A stretch of DNA of 29,278 nt, from positions 1 to 29,278 of the IMG/VR virus record IMGVR_UViG_3300042894_002115; one strand, 5' to 3'. Shown here piece by piece: positions 26 through 27,678 of the stretch. Position 1 is the stretch's first letter. Each line of letters begins with the position of its first letter. Under the pieces are notes generated by a model. That model was not told the DNA's origin, did not search any database, and worked only from the letters and a program-made list of their open reading frames with translations. Both the position numbers and the translations under genes were made by a program. Source of the DNA: a virus.

Positions 26-178
26 ATGGCTAAGATTGAAAGGGAAATCCCAAATCCCGGAGTGGGCGGCAGCTATTTGTTTGACCCCAAGACGGGAAAG
101 CTTACACTGATCACAGAAACCGCCGCTCCTACCACCGATGGCACTGACTCGGAAGAAGTTTCTGATCGCGAAGATTGA
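26..178 (+). CDS. small hypothetical protein ahead of the tail tube gene (50 aa)
   Basis: A 50-residue ORF starts at ATG 26, four bases after the upstream stop, and ends at TGA 176-178. It overlaps the start of the tail tube gene by 41 bases in another frame. The product has a basic start (MAKIEREIPNPGVGGSY), a short FDPKTGKLTLI segment and an acidic, Ser/Thr-rich tail. I do not recognise a family. Its position between two tail genes suggests a small structural or assembly accessory. The long overlap and weak ribosome binding site keep confidence moderate. Confidence 0.5.
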   Translation: MAKIEREIPNPGVGGSYLFDPKTGKLTLITETAAPTTDGTDSEEVSDRED

Positions 179-1079
179 GTCCACTTACGGGACCGATCCA
201 AGTCCTGTCGGCGGTTCTGACGCGGTCCAAGTCACCAACCTTGAGGTGACTCCAATTGAATCTGACAACGTCCAGGCTGCTGCGTATCAAGGCTTCTTGG
301 GTAATAGCACTCGCGGCACATTGGTTGCGAACAAGCGTGTCAGCGTCACCTTTGACATTGAGCTTGCTGGTTCTGGAACTGCTGGCACTGCGCCTGCGTT
401 TGGTCCGCTGTTGAAGTCTTGCGGATTGAGTGAGGCGATTGTTTCGTCCACTTCTGTGACCTATGCGCCGGTCTCGAGCAGCTTTAGTTCAGCAACGATC
501 TACTGCTTCTATGACGGCACTCGTCACAAGATCACTGGTGCTCGCGGCACTGTCAGCTTCAACATGACTGCTGGTCAGTTTGCTGTCGCAAGCTTCAATT
601 TCATTGGGATCTACAACGCACCTGATGACACTGCCCTGTCGGGTTCGTTCACTGTGGCGAATCAGGCTGCTGCGATCGAAGTAAATGACACCAACGTGAC
701 GACTGCCACCTTCCATGGTGTGACCAGCTCACGCATTGAGTCGTTCGATCTGGCAATGAATAACGAGCTGCTGTACAAGGAGACTGCTTCCAACAAGGAA
801 GTGCTGATCACCAACCGCGCCCCTGGCGGCACTGCCGTGATTGAGGCTCCTGCAGTTGGCACCACTGACTTCTTTGCTAAGGCAGTTGCTTCTGCTACCG
901 GCAGCACCAGCATCGTGCTAGGCGGCACTGCTGGAAATATTGTCACGGTCAATGCAGCACAGACAGACATCACTGGTTGCAGCTACGCTGACACGAACGG
1001 CGTTATCGCTCTGTCGATGCCGTACCTTGCCCTGCCTACCACGGCTGGCAACAACGAAATGTCACTCGTCTTCACCTGA
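138..1079 (+). CDS. phage tail tube protein (major tail protein)
   Basis: This 313-residue protein should polymerise into the tube of the non-contractile tail. The start MALTRKKFLIAKIESTYGTD is typical of one siphovirus tail tube family, in which a basic stretch is followed by a Tyr-Gly-Thr-Asp turn. The rest is rich in Thr, Ser, Gly and Ala with alternating beta-strand patterns and no membrane segment. That is the composition of tube proteins with an added Ig-like or beta domain. The next genes are a tail assembly chaperone pair and the tape measure gene, the conserved lambda order V-G-T-H, which supports the call. The ATG at 138 lacks a clear Shine-Dalgarno sequence but gives the characteristic N-terminus. 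Confidence 0.85.
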   Translation: MALTRKKFLIAKIESTYGTDPSPVGGSDAVQVTNLEVTPIESDNVQAAAYQGFLGNSTRGTLVANKRVSVTFDIELAGSGTAGTAPAFGPLLKSCGLSEAIVSSTSVTYAPVSSSFSSATIYCFYDGTRHKITGARGTVSFNMTAGQFAVASFNFIGIYNAPDDTALSGSFTVANQAAAIEVNDTNVTTATFHGVTSSRIESFDLAMNNELLYKETASNKEVLITNRAPGGTAVIEAPAVGTTDFFAKAVASATGSTSIVLGGTAGNIVTVNAAQTDITGCSYADTNGVIALSMPYLALPTTAGNNEMSLVFT

Positions 1080-1084
1080 TCCCT

Positions 1085-1411
1085 ATGGCTTTCATTCTCA
1101 AGAAGACTGCTTCGTACAAATGGCCCGTGACAGTGGAAGTCCCTGTTGATGGTGGCAAATTTGAAAAGCAAACGTTCGATGCAGTCTTCAAGAAGATGAG
1201 TCGTTCTGCCTTCAACGACCTGATTGACAAAGGCGATGATATCTTGGTTGATGGGATCCTTGAAGGTTGGGACGGCGTCAAGGATGAAGAAGGCAAGGAC
1301 GTTGCATTCACGCAGAAGGCCAAGAAAGAGATCTGCGACGATCCTTATGTGATGCGTGCGTTGATTCAAGCTTATGCCGACAGCGTGACTGGAGCGCCAG
1401 CAAAAAACTAA
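1085..1411 (+). CDS. tail assembly chaperone, lambda gpG-like
   Basis: This 108-residue protein lies between the tail tube and tape measure genes, exactly where lambda-type phages carry the gpG chaperone that keeps the tape measure soluble and recruits tube subunits. It is charged and mostly helical, with residues such as KKMSRSAFNDLIDKGDD, and has no membrane segment. The start ATG is five bases after the tail tube stop. The last codons read GCA AAA AAC TAA, so the frame ends immediately after a perfect slippery heptamer. A fraction of ribosomes should therefore make the longer 1085-1749 product. The call rests on position and the frameshift signal more than on sequence recognition. Confidence 0.85.
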   Translation: MAFILKKTASYKWPVTVEVPVDGGKFEKQTFDAVFKKMSRSAFNDLIDKGDDILVDGILEGWDGVKDEEGKDVAFTQKAKKEICDDPYVMRALIQAYADSVTGAPAKN

Positions 1412-1749
1412 AAGTCGCCGCTGAGTATTGGGCGAAAGGCGGCGTTGTTGATGAACGTGAGACTGATCTGAAAGCTCTTGGCGCGAGCGAGGAGCAGCTT
1501 GCTGTCTTAAAACTGGAGAGTGTTGAGAAAGATTGCGAGGTATGGGAAGAGAATTGGGACGTGTTGAACATGTTCATTCGTTTGTCAACGCAATGGCACA
1601 CGAGCATGGCTGGATTGACGGGATTGAACTACCAGAGTTTGGAATGGCTATGTAAGCTGTATGCAGTCAAGGATCCTGTGGCCATGTTCGAAGGCGTGCA
1701 GGCAATGGAGATGGCTGTCCTGTCCGTCTTGAACAAGAGGAAGAAATGA
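1085..1749 (+). CDS. frameshifted tail assembly chaperone, gpGT-like fusion (about 221 aa)
   Basis: After decoding AAA AAC at 1403-1408, a -1 slip makes the next codon CTA at 1408. This opens a continuous frame of 113 codons to TGA 1747-1749. The extension begins LKVAAEYWAKGG and contains a stretch, STQWHTSMAGLTGLNY, that matches what I recall of DUF1799, a family found at the T position of tail modules. The T part has no good start of its own before residue-level homology begins; its first ATG (1561) would cut off the conserved segment. In lambda the T domain binds tail tube protein while the G domain binds the tape measure protein. The end overlaps the tape measure start as ATGA. Confidence 0.85.
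1402..1444 (+). promoter_or_regulatory. programmed -1 ribosomal frameshift signal
   Basis: The heptamer A AAA AAC lies at 1402-1408 in the correct X_XXY_YYZ phase relative to the upstream gene and is followed directly by its TAA stop. Seven bases further on, CGCCGC (1416-1421) can pair perfectly with GCGGCG (1439-1444) around a 17-base loop. A slippery heptamer, a spacer of 5-9 bases and a GC-rich stem are the standard parts of a -1 frameshift site. Lambda uses a different heptamer at the same genetic position. Confidence 0.85.
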
Positions 1750-4244
1750 GCCAAGTCACTGAACTGCTGGTACGGATCAAGGAGCAGGGCGGTGAGCAGC
1801 TCACAAGGCTTCAGGGCACGCTGAAAAACCTGGCGCAACAGACGGCTGCAACAAATATCAACTTCAAGGAAGCATCAAACGAACTGCGCAAGATACAGCA
1901 AAACTCTGCAAATAGCATCAACAATCTCAAAGGATATGCAAATGCTTGGCGCGAGATTGCAAATAGCGTTGATATCGCGAGTGCTGAATTTAAGCAGGCA
2001 AGCGCGGAGGCGGCAAAACTTGATGCACAACTCAGGAAGGTCCAACCTGGTGGTCGTGGTCGTCTTGCAGGCGCTGCGCAGATTGCGGGCACAATTGCTG
2101 GCGCTGGCGTCTTTGGCGGCCTTGAGGGCGGTGCTGGCGCTGCCATAGGTGGCATTATTGGTGGCGTCCCTGGCTCAATTGTTGGCGGTGCAATTGGTGC
2201 ACAAGTTGGGCAGGCACGTCAATCGCTTGGTGGCCTTGCTGATTACACGGCACAGATTGAGAAGCAGCGCATTGCCTTGCGTCTTGTTACTGCAGATGCA
2301 AATTCCTTTGCTCAAGGTTTGGCATTTATTGATCAAACAAGTCGTCAATTTGCAATTCCGCAAGAGCTAATTACACGTCAATTTACGCAGTTGTCGGCAT
2401 CTGTCATTGGTGCGGGTGGAAACGTTAAAGACGCTGAGAAGGCGTTCCTTGGCATTGCTGCTGGTATTCGAGGCACAGGTGGCAGCCTTGAGGACATGGA
2501 CGCAGCATTGCGTGCAACTGCGCAGGTGTTCAGCAAAGGCAAGGTAAGTGCTGAAGAATTGCGTCAACAGATTGGTGAGCGGCTGCCTGGTGCATTTACT
2601 TTGTTTGCCAAGTCAATCGGCATGACACCGCAGGAACTTGATAAAGCCCTAGAGCAAGGTCAAGTTTCGTTGCAAGATTTTATGAAGTTTGCCGAGGAGC
2701 TATTTAAGAGGTACGGCAAAAACGCTGAAATCATCGCCAAGGGGCCTCAGTCTGCTGGTGACCGGTTGCAGGCGGCCTTGTCACGCTTGAGCGAGAGCGT
2801 TGGTCGATTGTTGGCTCCTATTGGTGCTGCATTTCAAAGCATCTTTGCTGACATTGTCGAGGCTATTGATCGCGCTGCACGCTCTCTTGCTCGCTTCATG
2901 GGCATGAAGTTTTACGACCCAACTCGAATCAATGAGTTAAAAGGTGACATCGCAAGAATTCGCAAGGAAATTGATCAGCTTGGGCCGACTGGCGGTAAGG
3001 CAACTGCAGGACGTGAGCAGCTTTTACGCTTGAAAGTTGCAGAGCTGACGCAGCTCGAAGGTCTCAAGCCAAAAGGTGGCTCTACTGGTCAACTGCCGCC
3101 TAGCAATTTGCCTGGGATTATCCCTAGGGCTGGCAAAGAAGGTCGTGCCAAAGAAGATCAAGAAGCAAAACGTCAAGAAAGACTGCTCGAAAGGCGAATT
3201 GAGCTGACTCGCAAAGCGTCGGAATTTCAACGTGACCTTAACAATAAAGTCTTCGAGACAAATGAAAAAATTCAATCCTTAGGCGCAAACTCCATTCAAG
3301 TCTTTGAACGCCAATATATTGACAAGGTAACTGATGCTGAAAAGATTACGGGTGATTTGCTTCTTAAGATCTTCAACTTTGCTAAGGAAGTTCGCGAAGC
3401 TGGCGGCAAACTAAACATTCAAAATCTTGTTCAAACTGTTGTCACTCTTGAAAATACAGCTAAATCGTTGGCACAGAATGAATACGTCACAAATTTGAAT
3501 GACCTATTCAAAGAGCTTGATACAACGTTTACTGAGATCACGGATCGCGTCTACGAAAATGCACGCGCCTTGCAGTACAACGCAGATGTCATGGGTGGCC
3601 TCAAGGATGGCCTGATGAGTTATAGCGAGGGCATTGGTACAGTCAGGCAGGCATTCAGCGATTTAGCAGAATCTGGTATCAAGAAGATCGAGGATTCAAT
3701 TTTTGAATTATTGACGACTGGCACCGTCAATTACAGAGAGTTTGCATCACAAATCCTCAAGGAAACAACGCGGATGATTCTTCAACAATATGTTTTGAAG
3801 GGTGTGATGCAAGCACTGGGATTCTTGAAACCTGCAGCAGCTTCTGGTCTTAGCCCATTACAGGGCATCCCCCTGTTCCAATCTTCAAGTGTAAACTTCA
3901 ATCCTTTGGCATTTGGCTCCAGCTTTGCAATGGGTGGCGTTATGACGCCTTACGGGCCGATGCAGCTCAAGAAATACGCCAATGGCGGCATTGCCAATTC
4001 GCCTCAGCTTGCTGTGTTTGGCGAAGGTGCACGTTCTGAAGCGTATGTCCCGCTACCTGATGGACGTTCAATCCCAGTTACAATGAAGGGCGGCGGTGAA
4101 TCGACAGTAATCGTGAACGTCGACGCTACTGGCTCACAGGTGCAGGGCAACAACAGCGATGCAAATGCACTTGGTCGTGTCGTGGGTGCCGCAGTGCAGC
4201 AAGAATTGATCAGGCAAAAACGTCCTGGAGGCCTGCTCGCATAA
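1746..4244 (+). CDS. tape measure protein
   Basis: This 832-residue protein should set tail length and be ejected with the DNA. The N-terminal 100 residues form charged coiled-coil-like helices. Residues about 105-160 are a Gly/Ala-rich hydrophobic stretch (GAGVFGGLEGGAGAAIGG and following) able to insert in membranes. Residues about 228-324 carry the recognised phage tape-measure domain, with AAGIRGTGGSLEDMDAALRA, EELRQQIGERLPGAF and GMTPQELDKAL. A second charged helical region follows, and the C-terminus has the lambda-gpH-like segment GEGARSEAYVPLPDGR. It is the longest helical protein in the tail module and follows the chaperone pair, as expected. Its start overlaps the preceding stop (ATGA). 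For scale, lambda gpH has 853 residues. Confidence 0.93.
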   Translation: MSQVTELLVRIKEQGGEQLTRLQGTLKNLAQQTAATNINFKEASNELRKIQQNSANSINNLKGYANAWREIANSVDIASAEFKQASAEAAKLDAQLRKVQPGGRGRLAGAAQIAGTIAGAGVFGGLEGGAGAAIGGIIGGVPGSIVGGAIGAQVGQARQSLGGLADYTAQIEKQRIALRLVTADANSFAQGLAFIDQTSRQFAIPQELITRQFTQLSASVIGAGGNVKDAEKAFLGIAAGIRGTGGSLEDMDAALRATAQVFSKGKVSAEELRQQIGERLPGAFTLFAKSIGMTPQELDKALEQGQVSLQDFMKFAEELFKRYGKNAEIIAKGPQSAGDRLQAALSRLSESVGRLLAPIGAAFQSIFADIVEAIDRAARSLARFMGMKFYDPTRINELKGDIARIRKEIDQLGPTGGKATAGREQLLRLKVAELTQLEGLKPKGGSTGQLPPSNLPGIIPRAGKEGRAKEDQEAKRQERLLERRIELTRKASEFQRDLNNKVFETNEKIQSLGANSIQVFERQYIDKVTDAEKITGDLLLKIFNFAKEVREAGGKLNIQNLVQTVVTLENTAKSLAQNEYVTNLNDLFKELDTTFTEITDRVYENARALQYNADVMGGLKDGLMSYSEGIGTVRQAFSDLAESGIKKIEDSIFELLTTGTVNYREFASQILKETTRMILQQYVLKGVMQALGFLKPAAASGLSPLQGIPLFQSSSVNFNPLAFGSSFAMGGVMTPYGPMQLKKYANGGIANSPQLAVFGEGARSEAYVPLPDGRSIPVTMKGGGESTVIVNVDATGSQVQGNNSDANALGRVVGAAVQQELIRQKRPGGLLA

Positions 4245-4615
4245 TGGCCACTTTCAACGACGCAACAGTTGGCACAAGTAGCGGCGGGACAACGCCTGAC
4301 TTCAGCCTGACCAAGAAAAGTGAACCCAAATATCGCACCGTTAAGTTTGGTGACGGTTATGAGCAGCGTTTGCGTTATGGATTGAACCAAAATCCAAAGG
4401 TTTGGGATTTGCGGTGGACAGCCAAAAGCAACGCTGATGCCGATGCAATTGAAGCATTTTTTGATGCAAGAGCTAATGATGCCGCTGCCTTTGATTGGAC
4501 GCCACCAGCCGGTGGCAATGCTGGTAAATACATTTGCCCTAATTGGAGCAGGGAACTTCAATATGCAAATATCAATATCATCACCGCCACGTTTGTGCAG
4601 GTGTTTGAGCCATGA
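4244..4615 (+). CDS. minor tail protein, lambda gpM-like
   Basis: This 123-residue protein fits the gpM/phage minor tail family, which forms the first ring of the tail tip below the tape measure. The recognisable core is YRTVKFGDGYEQRLRYG near the N-terminus, followed by DLRWTA, AFFDARANDAAAFDWTPP and a final TFVQVFEP strand. Family members are about 110-120 residues and share the F-GDGYEQR signature and the aromatic Trp-Thr-Pro turn. The ATG shares its A with the tape measure stop (TAATG), and the gene end overlaps the gpL start, so translation is probably coupled. Position H-M-L is conserved. Confidence 0.9.
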   Translation: MATFNDATVGTSSGGTTPDFSLTKKSEPKYRTVKFGDGYEQRLRYGLNQNPKVWDLRWTAKSNADADAIEAFFDARANDAAAFDWTPPAGGNAGKYICPNWSRELQYANINIITATFVQVFEP

Positions 4616-6156
4616 GCGAGATGTTTCAGGAGCTGCTCAGCTCCAACCCTTACGCGATCATCGAGCTGTTTGAGCTGCACCTTGACGCAACGCTGCACGG
4701 CACGACTGAGATTGTTTACTTTCACCCTGGTGTGAATCAGAAGACACCATCAGGCAACATCATCTGGAAGGGCAAGCCATATCAGGCACTACCGATCGAG
4801 GTAGAGGGCTTTGAGTACAACGGCACTGGCCAGTTGCCACGACCGAAGGTGCGGGTATCAAACTTGCTTGGCAACATCTCGGCGCTGCTGCTGAGCGTCA
4901 ACGAGTTCACGATTGGCAACGACCTGACAGGCGCGAAGGTGATCAGGATCCGCACGCTGAGCAGGTTCCTTGACCCTGTCAATTTCACTGGCGGCGTGAA
5001 CCCCTATGGCACACCGGCCAACGAGGAGATGCCACGTGAGATTTACTACATCGACCGCAAGTCAGTTGAGAACAGGGACGTTGTTGAGTTTGAGCTGGCG
5101 GCAGTGTTTGACTTGGCTGGTGTGCGTGCGCCGAAACGGCAGGTGATCGCCAACATTTGCCAATGGAAATATCGCAGCGCTGAGTGTGGCTACACAGGCA
5201 GCAACTACTTTGATGAGTACGACAACGCCTTAGGGGCCACGCCTGCACCTAATTTCAACTCAACCGCATTTGGCGCTCAGCTCAACGTCAACGAGACATT
5301 GAACGAAGGCGACGCGATTGTCTCGTCCAATGGCTGGTATCGAGCGCTTATGCAGGCCGATGGCAACTTCGTGGTCTACAACAAGGCGAACGTGCCTGTC
5401 TGGCAAACTGGAACAAACCGTGGTGACGGCACTTGGCAGCTCAGGATGCAGGCTGATGGCAACCTTGTCATCTACAACGGCAGCACTGCGATCTGGGCCA
5501 GCAACACAGTCGGCACCGCATCACCAACGGGCTTGGCATTCCTTGGCTGGTATCCAACCGATGGTCAGACCGGCCGCTCTGGTGGCTTTGGTTGGGAGTG
5601 CGTCGGATCATCGCCTGCTAGTGCTGGGCTGACTAACACGCAGACGGAAACGTTCACGGTCAGTGGCCGCACAATCACAGTTCAGTTCACGTTCACGTCT
5701 GCTGCGCTGCCTGTCGATCACTACACAGGTGAGTCGTTCGCTTGGAACGTCATTAGCAGTCAGTCAATCAGCAGTTCAACAGGCAGCTACTACCAGGGCG
5801 AGGTGATCAACCTGCCTAAGACCCTGAGCAGCAATAACCCATTCAGAAACAATCACCCCACACTGGGCACCTTGACGGAGGCAGGCCCGCAGTATGAGAT
5901 CACAGGCGTCAGCGGCAACAGCAATAACCGGCTGAGTATCACGACGACCGGTCAGCTCATTGTGTACACAGGCGCCAATACACCGCTCTGGACATCGAGC
6001 TACGCCAGCGCTGTCGAGCCTCTAGTGCAGACCGGCACTGTTGACCCGTTGCGTGATGTATGCGGCAAGCGGATCAGTTCATGCAGGAAACGCTTTGGTG
6101 AGTTCAACGACTTACCCTTTGGATCATTCCCAAGCGCTGGTACGTTCTACGGATGA
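4612..6156 (+). CDS. minor tail tip protein, lambda gpL-like, with inserted bulb-type lectin domain
   Basis: This 514-residue protein has a gpL fold in two pieces. Residues 1-200 carry the tail-tip domain and the first cysteine pair (C183, C192 in ICQWKYRSAECGYTG). Residues 478-514 carry the second pair (C484, C491 in VCGKRISSCRKRFG) and the usual ending. gpL proteins bind an iron-sulfur cluster with four cysteines. Between the pairs lie about 280 extra residues. They include two B-lectin repeats with the exact QxDxNxVxY motif (MQADGNFVVY near 248, MQADGNLVIY near 282), each followed by a Trp strand, and a degenerate third repeat near 443-464 (TTTGQLIVYTG). Around 300-440 is an unidentified beta-rich segment. 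The usual gpL length is about 230 residues. The insertion probably displays a glycan-binding lobe on the tail tip. Start and end both overlap neighbours. Confidence 0.9.
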   Translation: MSEMFQELLSSNPYAIIELFELHLDATLHGTTEIVYFHPGVNQKTPSGNIIWKGKPYQALPIEVEGFEYNGTGQLPRPKVRVSNLLGNISALLLSVNEFTIGNDLTGAKVIRIRTLSRFLDPVNFTGGVNPYGTPANEEMPREIYYIDRKSVENRDVVEFELAAVFDLAGVRAPKRQVIANICQWKYRSAECGYTGSNYFDEYDNALGATPAPNFNSTAFGAQLNVNETLNEGDAIVSSNGWYRALMQADGNFVVYNKANVPVWQTGTNRGDGTWQLRMQADGNLVIYNGSTAIWASNTVGTASPTGLAFLGWYPTDGQTGRSGGFGWECVGSSPASAGLTNTQTETFTVSGRTITVQFTFTSAALPVDHYTGESFAWNVISSQSISSSTGSYYQGEVINLPKTLSSNNPFRNNHPTLGTLTEAGPQYEITGVSGNSNNRLSITTTGQLIVYTGANTPLWTSSYASAVEPLVQTGTVDPLRDVCGKRISSCRKRFGEFNDLPFGSFPSAGTFYG

Positions 6157-6864: not shown

Positions 6865-7458
6865 ATGTTCCGCGTTATCAAGGTTTACGGCAAGCTGGCA
6901 AAGCATCTAGGGCAGCGCAGCTTTAAGGCTGCTGTGAAGACCCCGGCCGAGGCGATTCGGTTCCTGCTTGCCAACTTCCCTGACCTACGCGGTGTGCTGT
7001 CAGAGGGCGATTACAAGGTCACCGTGGGCCGCAATCAGCTTGACCTCGTCGATCATCCAGAGCACCTGCATTTCCCTGTTGCCAGCCAAGAGCCGATCAG
7101 GATTATCCCAGTGATTGCTGGCGCAGAGGGCGTTGGGCAGGTTCTTGCGGGTATAGCGCTGATTGCTGCTGCAATCTTCATTCCTGGTCTTGGCTTGGGC
7201 CTTGCTGGTGCAACGGTGACGCAAATTGGTCTGTTGGGTGGTGCGCTTGTGCTGGGCGGACTATCGCAAATGTTGACCCCTACGCCGACCATTAAACAAG
7301 GCATGGATGGTGACAACGACCCGCGCAAGTCGTATAGCTTCTCTGGTATTCAGAACGTCTCGCGGCAGGGCGTGCCTGTGCCGATTATTTACGGCGAAGT
7401 GTTTACTGGAAGTATTGTCGTTTCGGCTGGCATCAATACTGAAGAGGTTGCGTCATGA
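6865..7458 (+). CDS. tail assembly protein, lambda gpI-like
   Basis: This 197-residue protein matches the gpI family. A ubiquitin-like N-terminal part (VIKVYGKLAKHLGQRSF, then ILANFPDL-type helix and EPIRIIPVIAGA) is followed by a hydrophobic Gly/Ala-rich stretch around residues 90-135. The C-terminus ends in a short basic and polar region leading to QGVPVPIIYGEV. In lambda gpI is required to build the tip but is not found in the finished virion. The GlyGlyAla-rich segment may contact the tip or the tape measure. The position between gpK and gpJ, with a four-base overlap into gpJ, is conserved. Confidence 0.92.
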   Translation: MFRVIKVYGKLAKHLGQRSFKAAVKTPAEAIRFLLANFPDLRGVLSEGDYKVTVGRNQLDLVDHPEHLHFPVASQEPIRIIPVIAGAEGVGQVLAGIALIAAAIFIPGLGLGLAGATVTQIGLLGGALVLGGLSQMLTPTPTIKQGMDGDNDPRKSYSFSGIQNVSRQGVPVPIIYGEVFTGSIVVSAGINTEEVAS

Positions 7459-10400
7459 CGAAGCGTTTGATCGCTGGTGCTGGCGGTGGTGGTGGTGGTG
7501 GTGGCAAAGGCGGCGGCGGCGGTGGTGGCGGCGGTAGTGCAAACGTCACAAAAGACAATCTTGATTCACGGCAGGTAGCGCGGATCATTGACCTTCTTTG
7601 TGAAGGCGAGATCGAAGGATTCCCATCTGCTCGTGGTTACACGCTGGGCACGACGGAATACAACACAGCGATGTTGAAGGATGTTTATCTCAACAACACG
7701 CCAATCCTTCGCTCGACTGCCAACCCGTCTGCCGTTCAGGCTTCTGATTACAACTTTGATACAACTGGCGGCGTCTTTGAGTTTCGCACCGGCACACAGA
7801 ATCAAACCTATACGCAGAACGTAGGCGACGCCAACCAGAGCACCACAGTCGTCAATACCAAAGTCACACAGGCAGCCGCGGTTACGCGGTCGATCACTGA
7901 CCCTGATGTCAACGCTGTGCGCGTCACGATCGGCACGCCTGCACTTCAGATCTTTAAGAACAACGGCGACGTCGAGGGGGCTGTCATTCAATACAGGATT
8001 CAAACTTCATACAGCGGTGGACCATTCTCAACTGTTGTTGAAAGTGAGATCAAGGGCCGCACGGCTGATCTATATCAACGCATTCATCGCATTGACCTGA
8101 CCGCAGCAGCACCGGTTGACATCCGCGTTGTACGCGTCAATGCAGATGCTGCACCATCAGGTGAGCAGACAGAGAACAGCGACTTTTATTGGTACGACTA
8201 CACCGAAAAGATCAACGCCAAGACCACTTATCCAAACAGTGCACTGTTCGCCGTCAAGCTCAGCGCTGAACAGTTCAACAGCATCCCCTCGCGCTCGTAT
8301 CGCCTGCGTGGCCTCAAGGTGCGCATCCCTAGTAATGCCACCGTCAACCAGACCAACGGTCGTCTGATCTATGCGGGTACATGGTCAGGCAACTTCGGTG
8401 CAGCACAGTGGACGACAGACCCTGCGTGGATCCTGTGGGACCTGCTGACCAGCACCCGCTATGGGTTTGGTGATCACATCGACGCGACGCAGCTCGACAA
8501 GTGGAGCTTCCTTGCCGCCAGCCAATACTGCACTGAGGTTGTATCCGATGGCAAAACAGGGCAGGAGCCGCGCTTTTCATGCAACGTCGTCATTCAGACG
8601 CAACAAGAAGCGTTCAAGCTGATCAGCGATCTGTGCTCAGTGTTTCGCGCCATGCCGTTCTGGGCCAATGGCACGCTTGAGATTGCGCAGGACCGGCCGC
8701 AGGACTACAGCTACATCTTCAACCAAACCAATGTCACCGAGGAAGGATTCAGCTACAGCGGCAGCAGCTTGAAGACACGGCACACCGTTGCTGTTGTGCA
8801 GTATTTCGACATGAACCTGCGCGACCTTGCCTACGAGGTGGTCGAAGACAAGGCAGGCATTGACAAGTTCGGTGTTGTCAAAACGGAGATCTCGGCGTTC
8901 GCCTGCACCAGCCAGAACCAAGCCCGACGCGTTGGCGAATGGCTGCTGTACACCGAACAGAACGAGACTGAGGTCGTCAGCTTCAAGACTGACATCGCCG
9001 CTGGCATCACGGTGCGGCCTGGTGACCTGATCAAGATCGGTGATCCTGTGCGTGCTGGTGTGGTGCGCTCCGGCCGCTGCATAAGTGGCTCAACAACGAC
9101 GGTGGTCAAGCTCGACCGCGATGACGTTCAACTGTTCCCAAGCGGCCCACCAAATGACTTCACGTTCAACGTGCTGCTGCCTGATGGCACCTTGGCTGTG
9201 GTTGCTGGATCGAACCTGGTAGGCAACTCAGTCAGTACTGGCACGGTCTTGACTGCAGCGCCTGTTGCTGGTGCGCCGTGGACCATTGGCGACTCCGCCG
9301 TTCAGATGTCAACGTGGCGGGTGCTGACGATCAAGGAAGAAGGCGACGCCTTTGCTGTCACGGCTGTTGCCCATAACCCAAGCAAGTATGACTACATCGA
9401 GCGGGACATCCCTCTCAGCCAGCGCGACGTATCAGACCTGAACGAACCGCCAGAAACGCCAACCAACCTAGGCGTCAATGAAGTGCTATATGAAAGCAAC
9501 GGGCAGGTGCTGTCGAAGCTGATCATCGGCTGGCGTGCGGCTGCTCGGGCACTTAGCTATGAGGTGCGCTACCGGTACAACAACGGCAACTGGGTGGCGA
9601 ACACAACCCGCTCGGTTGACTTTGAGATTGCCAACAGCGACGTTGGCCGCTACGAGATCGAGGTGACAGCACTGGGCGCGATCAACAGCAAGCGCTCGAC
9701 ACCCGCCGTCAAGACCTTCGACGCGATCGGTAAGACCGCCCCACCTGCCACGATCCCTGACCTGTTCATCGCCCCAATCGACGAGCACACGGCTGAGCTG
9801 TACTGGCCGCAGGCGGTTGACCTGGACGTGAAGATCGGCGGCAAGATCCGCATCAGGCACACGCCTATCACGGATGTCACGGCGACATGGGGAAAAGCAA
9901 ACGACATCGTGCCAGCCGTTGCAGGCAGCAGCACGCGCAAGATCGTGCCACTGCTTGAGGGCACCTACTTCATCCGCGCTTTTGACTCGCTCGGCAATGA
10001 GTCGTCAGGCGTGGCCACAGTCGTGGTTGACCTGCCCGCTCCTCAGGACCTGCTGCTGGTGCAGGAATACAGAGAGGAAGACAACAGCCCGCCGTTCAAC
10101 GGCACCGGTACGAACTTGTACTACAACGAAGCCGAGGTGGGCCTGGTGCTGGCGGCTGATGAGCTGGTCGATGACATGGCCACCGACAACAACTGGGACG
10201 GCCTGGGCCTGATCGACTACATCGGCGGTTCAGCCAGCGAGGGCAGCTACCAGTTTTATGAAACGCTGGACCTTGGCGCCACCTACGACCTTGGCCTGCA
10301 GCAGATCCTCAAGACACGCGCCTACGAGCCGGGCAACACATGGGACGAGCGCCTTGACCTGATTGATCTGTGGGATGACATCGACGGTGATGACCTTGGC

Positions 10401-18150: not shown

Positions 18151-18674
18151 TGTCTGTCCTGTGTGACTGGCAAATTCGCAAGCTGTGTCAGAACCATGCA
18201 ATGGTCACTCCGTTCATGGAGGAGCTGCTGAACCCTGCATCATTGGACGTAAGGCTTGGCTATCACTTGATGGTTGAGCGGCCTATGGACATGGATCTTG
18301 AGCTTCTTGACCTGACTGGATACAGCGCACAGGACCCGTACTGGCTGCGCCCTGGTGAGTTTGTCCTGGCGGAGACAATCGAGACCTTCAATCTGCCTGA
18401 AAGCGTCTGCGGTCAGTTTGCGCTCAAGAGCAGCAGGGCACGCGCTGGCTATAGTCACATGCTGGCAGGCTGGTGCGACCCCGGTTGGCATGGGTCTAGG
18501 TTGACACTAGAACTGCAAAATGCACGCAAGATGCATTCACTACCCCTGTACCCTGGATTAAAGATTGGGCAGATAATTTTCTTTGAAATGAGTGAAGAAC
18601 CAGACATCAGTTACGCCAAGGTCGGTCATTACAACAACGACAACAAAGTATCAGCTTCTAAAGTTCATCCCTGA
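18150..18674 (+). CDS. dcd: dCTP deaminase / dUTPase-superfamily enzyme
   Basis: This 174-residue protein converts dCTP to dUTP (or to dUMP in bifunctional relatives), feeding dTTP synthesis for phage DNA. It has the family motifs: NPASLDVRLG at 28-37, KSSRARAG at 93-100, the catalytic region GWCDPGWHGSRLTLELQN with likely catalytic E121, and the LPLYPGLKIGQIIFFEM ending. Typical family length is 170-195. The ATG overlaps the endolysin stop by one base (TGATG). The end is overlapped by the minus-strand HNH gene over 17 bases, so the two cannot both be altered freely. Whether it is mono- or bifunctional cannot be told by eye. Confidence 0.92.
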   Translation: MSVLCDWQIRKLCQNHAMVTPFMEELLNPASLDVRLGYHLMVERPMDMDLELLDLTGYSAQDPYWLRPGEFVLAETIETFNLPESVCGQFALKSSRARAGYSHMLAGWCDPGWHGSRLTLELQNARKMHSLPLYPGLKIGQIIFFEMSEEPDISYAKVGHYNNDNKVSASKVHP

Positions 18675-18972
18675 ACTGATACAGCCACTGCCAGATCTCA
18701 ATTTCACGTTCGATTGAGTAAAATTGCTGCTGTCTATACCAGAGAGTCCACTCTGTTGAACTCTTAGATCCGTTGCAGCGCAAGCAAGCTGGGACGAGAT
18801 TCTCTACAATCGTTTGCCCACCGCGATGTCTTGGGATAACGTGATCAAGCGACTTTGCGTGCTCACCACAGTATGCACAATTACCACCAAAAGCTTCAAA
18901 GATCTTTAACCTGAATTGCGCCCTTGTTTCTCTCTTTGGAATCAGACTGGTCTCGTCGATCCAAGAGTGCAT
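18658..18972 (-). CDS. HNH endonuclease
   Basis: Read leftward, the 104-residue product has the zinc-supported HNH core: CAYCGEHAKSLDHVIPRHRG with C32, C35, D43 and H44, then ENLVPACLRCNGSKSS with N58, C63 and C66. I choose ATG 18972 because an AGGGAG site lies seven bases upstream; an alternative TTG at 18993 adds seven residues. The enzyme nicks or cuts DNA; free-standing HNH genes like this often behave as homing elements or help packaging, the latter usually near terminase, which is not here. It is on the opposite strand to its neighbours and overlaps the dcd 3' end, pointing to later insertion. Confidence 0.9.
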   Translation of the reverse strand: MHSWIDETSLIPKRETRAQFRLKIFEAFGGNCAYCGEHAKSLDHVIPRHRGGQTIVENLVPACLRCNGSKSSTEWTLWYRQQQFYSIEREIEIWQWLYQFRDEL

Positions 18973-19032
18973 GACGCGCTCCCTGTTGCGCAAATCCTAG
19001 GCAAGATTTTGAAAAAGACGAGGAAAGAAATC

Positions 19033-26352: not shown

Positions 26353-26798
26353 ACAAGACGTTCTCTTGGAATACGATCGGCATCCCTGCTCCTCAAGGCA
26401 GCAAACGACACGTTGGTAACGGGCGCCTGATCGAGTCCTGCAAGGCCCTGAAACCTTGGCGTGAGCAGTGCATTGCCGATGCCTTGTCCCTGTCAATCCC
26501 AACGATCCATGGCCCTGTCAGCATCTCCCTCGTGTTTCGCTTTCAGCGCCCCAAATCGCACTACAACAACAAAGGGCAACTCAAGCCCAATGCCCCGCAG
26601 TACAAGACCAGCAAGCCTGACATCGACAAACTTGCTCGTGCAATCCTCGACAGCCTCACTCTCGCAAGGGTTATCCAGGATGATGCTCAGTGCTTTCTGC
26701 TCACAGCACAGAAGCGCTTCTGCGTCGCGCAGGAACCCCCTGGCGTCATGATCACAGTCATGGACCTTGAGCACGAGGCCCGCTGTGATGTGGTATAA
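26349..26798 (+). CDS. rusA: RusA-type Holliday junction resolvase
   Basis: This 149-residue protein should cut four-way DNA junctions formed in recombination or replication. It shows the family start (GIPAPQGSKRHVG), the acidic catalytic elements KPDIDKLARAILDSL (D91, D93, D101) and VIQDDAQ (D111, D112), and a final strand (PPGVMITVMD). RusA proteins from phages are typically 120-150 residues and act as dimers. The ATG overlaps the previous stop; the gene's last codons overlap a promoter-like TGGTATAAT. It is the last gene of the rightward early operon and pairs logically with the SSAP and nuclease upstream. Confidence 0.9.
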   Translation: MNKTFSWNTIGIPAPQGSKRHVGNGRLIESCKALKPWREQCIADALSLSIPTIHGPVSISLVFRFQRPKSHYNNKGQLKPNAPQYKTSKPDIDKLARAILDSLTLARVIQDDAQCFLLTAQKRFCVAQEPPGVMITVMDLEHEARCDVV

Positions 26799-26799
26799 T
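26791..26799 (+). promoter_or_regulatory. extended -10 promoter TGGTATAAT
   Basis: TGG directly followed by TATAAT (26794-26799) is an extended -10 promoter; the -35 position has no strong match, which is usual for this class. It overlaps the RusA stop (TAA 26796-26798). Transcripts would start near 26805 and meet the terminator at 26814-26857 almost at once. Confidence 0.6.
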
Positions 26800-26813
26800 T
26801 CATTTGCGATTGG

Positions 26814-26857
26814 GCGCCCCGGACTTGAGGCATTGGCTTCACCGGGGTGTTTTTTTT
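26814..26857 (+). terminator. strong rho-independent terminator
   Basis: CCCCGG (26817-26822) pairs with CCGGGG (26842-26847), extended outward by G-T and C-G pairs, and inward by TGAGGC pairing with GCTTCA around ATTG. Eight T bases follow at 26850-26857. This should end the early operon efficiently. It also lies between the promoter at 26791 and the next gene. Confidence 0.9.
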
Positions 26858-26880
26858 ATGCTGTGTCAAAAGGAGGCAGC

Positions 26881-27678
26881 ATGATCACGATCGAATTCGA
26901 CCCCAAGAACATCATCGGGAAGATCACTGAACTGCAGCGCATTCAGATCCCACGTGCAGGCGCATTGGCGCTCAATCAAGCTGTCTTTGCAACGACGCAA
27001 GAGCTGAAATCACAAGCCAAGAACACGTTCAACAATCCTGTCCCGTTCACCCAGAACGCATTCCTGTACAAGAAAGCATCGCCTGAGCTGCTCGAAGCCA
27101 AAATCTTCATTCGTGATGAGGCGCCTAAAGGCAACCCACCTGCCAAATACCTGCTCCCACAGATCTACGGTGGCAAGTATTACCCCACACGCTTCCAGGG
27201 TGCCCTGTTAAACACCGTTGTGGAGCTGTCAAACGGGCGCTCATCACAGGTCGGTCAACGCGGCAAGGTCATGCTCGCCAACCTGAGAAGCCCCAAGACA
27301 CGTGTGAATCAGTACGGGAACATGAGTCCTGGTCAGTACACGCAGATTCTTTCGGCACTGCGCGGTAACGTCAGTTCTGCTGACATCTACGGGCGCCCCG
27401 GAACAGGTGAAGCATCCCTGAACCCTAAAAGCTTGAGTAAGTACATCTATCTGGACGAGGAGGAGATCTACGAGCCGTACTTCAGGCGTCGTTTCACCAA
27501 CTCACCCAAGCCTGGTATTTACTTTGTCGATCGCCAGCGTTCAGGGCTGCGTTACTACCGCGTCATGACTGAGACGGCCCTCCCGACTTACAGCGGTAAG
27601 TTCAAGTTCCTCGACATCGCACGATCGAGCGTTGAGCGTGAATTTGCAAAAAACTTTTCACGAATCGTTTTGCGTTGA
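26881..27678 (+). CDS. probable virion-associated protein (265 aa)
   Basis: ATG 26881 follows a perfect AAAGGAGG site. The product starts MITIEFDPKNIIGKITELQR and contains ALNQAVFATTQELKSQAKNT, then NPVPFTQNAFLYKKASP, a DEAPKGNPPAKYLLPQIYGG segment and TRFQGALLNTVV. Many phage genomes carry a protein with this order (Ala-Leu-Asn helix, P.P(F/Y)T.NA, GK(G/N)PPAKYL.P...GG, (K/R)RFE.AL), usually among head or tail genes and unnamed. Here it stands alone after a terminator, not beside the tail module. It may begin another late transcription unit. It overlaps no neighbour and is followed by the repeat region. Confidence 0.65.
   Translation: MITIEFDPKNIIGKITELQRIQIPRAGALALNQAVFATTQELKSQAKNTFNNPVPFTQNAFLYKKASPELLEAKIFIRDEAPKGNPPAKYLLPQIYGGKYYPTRFQGALLNTVVELSNGRSSQVGQRGKVMLANLRSPKTRVNQYGNMSPGQYTQILSALRGNVSSADIYGRPGTGEASLNPKSLSKYIYLDEEEIYEPYFRRRFTNSPKPGIYFVDRQRSGLRYYRVMTETALPTYSGKFKFLDIARSSVEREFAKNFSRIVLR

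Follow-up and report, generated by a model that had tools for sequence, protein, structure and literature searches.

Does the tail gene cluster of this uncultured virus produce its tail assembly chaperone as two separate proteins, or as a short protein G and a longer G-T fusion reached by a programmed -1 ribosomal frameshift? We analysed the whole virus record of 29,278 bases, referred to below as the window, together with homologous loci from close and distant relatives.

Gene order and reading frames

The chaperone pair overlaps between the genes for the tail tube and tape measure proteins, and its second frame is the -1 frame relative to the first, as in the lambda G/GT type (Table 1). Lambda-like minor tail and J-like genes follow the tape measure gene. 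G lies marginally above the curated cut-off of Pfam family PF08748, Phage_TAC_4 (21.4 bits, cut-off 21.1), while the T half scores 52.3 bits with PF08809, DUF1799 (cut-off 26); DUF1799 was present in all 11 of the 11 genomes that carry TAC_4. Among cultured phages, the Synechococcus siphoviruses S-CBS1, S-CBS3 and S-LBS1 have the G most similar to that of the window (27-35% identity), so the host is likely picocyanobacterial. No match was found at the DNA level in the phage records searched. G has no sequence match to a solved tail chaperone (gpG fold) in PDB, and its structure model (pLDDT 63), for which Foldseek returned no significant match, is too weak to place the fold.

Table 1. Features of the G/T locus in the window
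Feature	Coordinates	Strand	Evidence or remark
Tail tube protein gene	138..1079	+	5' neighbour of G; Pfam Phage_tube_2 4.5e-14; phrog_290 1.2e-26
G, tail assembly chaperone, zero-frame product of 108 aa	1085..1411	+	Phage_TAC_4; phrog_569 1.6e-18
Slippery heptamer A_AAA_AAC, in phase	1402..1408	+	Sequence; invariant in relatives
Zero-frame TAA stop abutting the heptamer	1409..1411	+	Sequence; TAA, TAG or TGA abuts across clade contigs
Hairpin 5' arm CGCCGCU (putative 3' stimulator)	1416..1422	+	Family-wide enrichment
Hairpin 3' arm GGCGGCG	1438..1444	+	Pairs with 1416..1422
T half, -1 frame, 113 codons, predicted access only via frameshift	1408..1749	+	DUF1799 6.6e-14; phrog_680 6.1e-23
Tape measure protein gene, ATGA overlap with T end	1746..4244	+	Pfam TMP_3 4.1e-21; Tape_meas_lam_C 2.5e-14

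The -1 frame is open from 1288, directly behind a TGA, to 1746. It had been predicted to run for 113 codons past the junction to the tape measure gene, and its TGA at 1747-1749 indeed overlaps the ATG at 1746. The prediction that start codons alone would reveal just a 62-residue gene was also correct: from the opening of the frame onwards, the first ATG, GTG or TTG is the GTG at 1561, from which 62 amino acids would be read. Yet codons 3-50 of the -1 frame, which extend from the junction to this first possible start, have a pN/pS of 0.215, as compared with 1.6-1.7 in the other two frames. Across the clade the first possible T start lies anywhere from 13 to 54 codons past the junction, at positions that are not conserved. 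The combination of a low pN/pS and a wandering start strongly disfavours a separate T gene and makes the fusion the unit that selection sees; this pattern shows that selection acts on the predicted G-T fusion. As in the lambda G/GT type, T is without an independent start and is under coding selection from the junction on. The phrog_680 match spans residues 17-112 of the -1 frame, i.e. it begins upstream of 1561. The motif KKLxxAA at the junction is kept family-wide, and the Leu that follows Lys-Lys in the -1 frame is retained also where no stop abuts the heptamer (CTC in loci L165, L181 and L191).

The heptamer and its stop codon in the window and in relatives

G ends GCA AAA AAC TAA, which agrees with the original prediction of an A_AAA_AAC heptamer in phase with a stop as the next codon. 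After a slip the junction would read CTA AAA GTC ..., with Leu following Asn, and the calculated mass of the 221-residue GT fusion is 24.8 kDa, within the 24-25 kDa that had been forecast. From the sequence, trypsin is predicted to yield only the tripeptide NLK across the junction, and Asp-N to yield DSVTGAPAKNLKVAAEYWAKGGVV. The + strand of the window holds four copies of AAAAAAC, and none of 300 codon-order shuffles of 24 genes placed it against a stop. A second in-phase A_AAA_AAC is found at 27648-27654, in a minor-tail-like gene (26767-27678, +; phrog_1924), 21 nt ahead of the stop of that gene and with the -1 frame open for 54 codons; this occurrence is probably due to chance.

The close clade comprised 80 IMG/VR contigs whose G is 81-100% identical and 16 further contigs, 96 in all. 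AAAAAAC with an abutting TAA, TAG or TGA was present in 80 of the 80 contigs (with the window included, the heptamer was found in 81/81 loci) and in 16 of the 16 others. Apart from contigs that end within it, the -1 frame of the 80 contigs stays open for 108-115 codons, and the A run is constant in length and phase across 97 sequences. Codon use at the junction was counted in 58 distinct sequences of the clade. Lys107 is AAA in 58/58, while elsewhere AAA makes up 29-40% and AAG 60-71% of Lys codons; Asn108 is AAC in 58/58 (elsewhere 62-77%), and Ala106 is GCA in 57/58 (elsewhere 19-29%). The synonymous freedom available at the heptamer is left unused, and selection on the putative slippery site is shown by this comparison of codons.

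More distant relatives have the same arrangement. A_AAA_AAC is followed at once by TGA in S-CBS1, S-CBS3, S-LBS1, Vibrio ZX4290, Pelagibaca P1, E. coli HK639 and an alphaproteobacterial MAG, while Rhodobacter RcWaterboi has G_GGA_AAC and TGA. The original prediction had named an observation that would speak against it, namely close relatives in which both frames persist but the heptamer is lost; A_AAA_AAC was instead retained in the 80/80 and 16 contigs and in seven of these eight divergent relatives.

We then searched 398 Pseudomonadota genomes with DUF1799 and read 29 prophage junctions; the pooled family set held 42 G/DUF1799 junctions after one duplicate was dropped. The heptamer is AAAAAAC in 33 of them, GGGAAAC in 8 and AAAAAAG in 1, so that the second slip codon is AAC in 41/42. 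In 37 of the 42 junctions the stop is the codon right after the heptamer (TGA 25, TAA 8, TAG 4). Where the Leu codon is CTN, only 11% of such sites would be expected to hold a stop, and since it was observed so much more often, the abutting stop appears to be under selection of its own; the binomial value for this excess overstates certainty, as the sequences share ancestry. An abutting stop is not required, because four junctions with A_AAA_AAC have theirs 9-105 nt away. The sole DUF1799 junction with A_AAA_AAG (L183, reverse strand of its locus) lies 18 nt before the stop, and no downstream stem was found there. Lambda-type T genes (PF06223) in the same genome sample served as controls: AAAAAAC is present in 12 of 17 such junctions, and AAC as second codon is therefore not peculiar to DUF1799, while the stop abuts in 3 of 17. 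The difference from 37/42 gives a Fisher value of 4e-7, to which the caveat of shared ancestry applies as well. In these PF06223 G/T junctions of Pseudomonadota prophages (L207-L226), AAAAAAC often takes the form AAAAAACTCC.

The downstream hairpin and the upstream region

The 6-bp GC stem predicted to begin 7 nt past the heptamer is present: CGCCGC (1416-1421) pairs with GCGGCG (1439-1444), and U1422-G1438 gives a seventh pair. Its place in the signal was only partly borne out by the window, where the stem is unremarkable (dinucleotide-shuffle z -0.79, not significant; synonymous-shuffle p 0.027), but it is real and significant family-wide, and this significance comes from comparison with relatives rather than from the single sequence. 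Of 51 distinct clade sequences, 42 can form at least six of the seven pairs, and most changes in the stem involve G-U pairs; no convincing case of compensatory change on both sides of the stem was seen in the close clade. In the family, stems 5-9 nt past the heptamer have a mean score of 19.1. Resampling that leaves the T proteins unchanged and draws on each gene's own codons gave 13.6 +/- 0.66, and 0 of the 200 resamplings reach the observed mean. Scores at other places in G and T are 10-13. Part of the complementarity of the stem stems from Ala-Ala and Gly-Gly codons. The stem has 13 pairs in S-LBS1 and nine in S-CBS1, and in S-CBS3 (GCGCCGT/ACGGCGC) its sequence is changed with the pairing intact. 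Some family members, such as L171, L172, L174 and L175, have no such stem 5-9 nt downstream; for this reason we regard the hairpin as a putative stimulator that is common and not obligatory.

A Shine-Dalgarno-like stimulator upstream of the heptamer was considered and rejected: over 43 junctions, anti-Shine-Dalgarno pairing had a mean z of -0.09 relative to synonymous shuffles, and in none was p<0.05. There is a hint of such an element in the clade, where GGAG or GGGG stands 7 nt upstream and Gly103 is GGA or GGG in 56/58 sequences, GGA being otherwise rare. A similar GGG bias is seen at Gly57, which has no known role. Because pairing does not exceed that of the shuffles and the bias at Gly57 is alike, the element was dropped as a family feature. 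The clade-only codon bias at Gly103 persists, and a family-wide Shine-Dalgarno effect explains neither it nor Ala104 (within 1385-1402, +), which is GCG or GCA in 56/58, contrary to usual codon preferences.

Mechanism, rival readings and known systems

The G/GT-type mechanism that was originally claimed is supported by the anatomy of the locus, by conservation, by coding selection on the -1 frame and by selection on heptamer and hairpin. A lambda-type programmed -1 ribosomal frameshift is the best explanation, and we put its probability at about 0.93 on the strength of these sequence comparisons. Most ribosomes would terminate G at the TAA, and a few percent would slip one base back, with tRNA-Lys on AAA and tRNA-Asn on AAC shifting in tandem to AAA-AAA. 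The GC hairpin 7 nt downstream would aid the slip, and slipped ribosomes would continue with CTA AAA GTC ... to complete the 221-residue fusion. By analogy with lambda, G would form a coat around the tape measure protein, and the few GT molecules would recruit tail tube subunits through their T part; the G:GT ratio would thus matter in tail assembly. Frameshifting of 6-7%, which is of the expected order, has been reported in a phage tail-chaperone gene cluster (PMC3711429). As a counterpoint, A_AAA_AAC is much less slippery than A_AAA_AAG in E. coli reporters (PMC5009743); low slippage is what G/GT needs.

The same frames could in principle be read in other ways. Ribosomes might make T as a protein of its own, by re-initiation or coupled initiation within the -1 frame, so that no fusion exists; a candidate start is the GTG at 1561, which has a purine-rich GGGAAGAG a few bases upstream. 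It is hard to credit such a start when it holds no conserved position, when the domain match begins before it, and when both the purifying selection on codons 3-50 and the family-wide KKLxxAA lie ahead of it. A sequencing error or gene decay as the source of the frame change can practically be dismissed: homopolymer runs are prone to indel errors, but a further 96 contigs and eight divergent phages or MAGs have the two frames in the same relation, and the T frame is under purifying selection. Transcriptional slippage, in which RNA polymerase would add an A within the A6 run so that some mRNAs encode the fusion in one frame, would give an identical protein product and does occur in some IS elements (PMC5009743). 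It is nevertheless very improbable, because the GGGAAAC members (8/42) have runs of only three bases, on which polymerase slippage is implausible; moreover, the A run has one length and one phase throughout the 97 sequences, its final C is fixed, and the selected hairpin stands at a spacing typical of ribosomes.

The remaining reading is a variant of the programmed frameshift that yields the same product and is not exclusive with it. The slip would come after translocation, once AAA has reached the E site and AAC the P site; slow termination at the stop in the A site would then promote the shift. The abutting stop favours this variant, being found at 37/42 DUF1799 junctions against an expectation of 11% and against 3/17 lambda-type junctions, with all three stops in use. 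It is an unlikely variant all the same, though less so than the readings above, since four junctions retain A_AAA_AAC with the stop 9-105 nt away and an abutting stop may merely be the most economical ending for G. We tentatively consider that the DUF1799 class may have a distinct composite signal, R_RRA_AAC against a stop plus a hairpin, in which the ribosome awaiting release factor at the abutting stop would be the one that slips; this idea is doubtful at present. If termination does take part, how readily the tRNAs slip would not be the only determinant of the G:GT ratio, and the supply of release factor would influence it too. The natural contrast between 37/42 and 3/17 provides matched signals with which to test whether the stop codon contributes to the -1 slip.

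The programmed frameshift proposed here can be compared with several known or predicted systems. The heptamer of phage lambda is G_GGA_AAG and its stop lies further on, whereas here A_AAA_AAC abuts the stop and T belongs to DUF1799, not to Phage_tail_T (PF06223). The lambda G/G-T pair is alike in lying between the tail tube and tape measure genes and in giving G and GT products by a -1 shift (PMC5009743). Burkholderia phage KL1 gp18/gp19, predicted in 2012, has the same architecture, with GGGAAAC right before TGA and a predicted stem-loop after it (PMC3483164); like the window it is known by prediction only, and it differs in its first codon (GGA, not AAA), its host and an additional gene that separates GT from the tape measure gene. 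Acinetobacter phages Loki (gp12/gp13) and IME_AB3 were predicted in 2017, with the heptamer abutting the stop in Loki; the host is again different, an extra gene lies ahead of the tape measure gene, and the relevant passage of that paper gives no stem (PMC5313236). S-CBS1, S-CBS3 and S-LBS1 share with the window a homologous G, A_AAA_AAC, a stop directly after it and, 5-6 nt downstream, a GC hairpin, and differ in that the stop is TGA, the hairpin sequences are different and the pair is annotated as two genes. E. coli dnaX likewise combines an A-rich heptamer with a downstream hairpin but uses A_AAA_AAG and a Shine-Dalgarno stimulator (PMC5009743), an element that showed no sign of family-wide selection here. 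AAAAAAC has also been reported in phiCbK and haloviruses (PMC3556154; PMC5009743). In the two phage sets of the PRFect paper, heptamer and stop lie on average 26 and 36 nt apart (PMC10885494); a family whose rule is a distance of 0 genuinely differs from these sets in degree. G/GT frameshifting is thus textbook knowledge and the exact arrangement was predicted before in KL1 and Loki; no paper linking DUF1799 and frameshifting was found among the open-access papers searched, and what is new is the family-wide pattern, a modest generalisation.

The expectation that annotators would see a truncated T is confirmed by the records of S-CBS1, S-CBS3 and S-LBS1, in which T is 5'-truncated to 87, 83 and 47 codons, respectively; in HK639 the T half has no annotation. 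The gene pair is widespread and regularly mis-annotated, and a firm rule can be given for TAC_4/DUF1799 phages: in almost every case (A/G)(AA/GG)A AAC stop closes G and marks the point where the T half starts. In S-LBS1 (L155), the G homologue A18 (1501-1881) is wrongly labelled as the ATPase component of a cobalamin/siderophore ABC transporter; the record also places a spurious gene, on the reverse strand, over the junction.

Three further features of the window were observed. The J-like protein has a long glycine run at its start (7455-7540, +; AGAGGGGGGGGKGGGGGGGGGSAN). Residues 246-297 of the gpL-like minor tail protein (4612-6156, +) form an insert that resembles a mannose lectin (B_lectin), with a score just under the Pfam cut-off. 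A lone HNH endonuclease gene (18658-18993, -) has a dCTP deaminase gene on one side.
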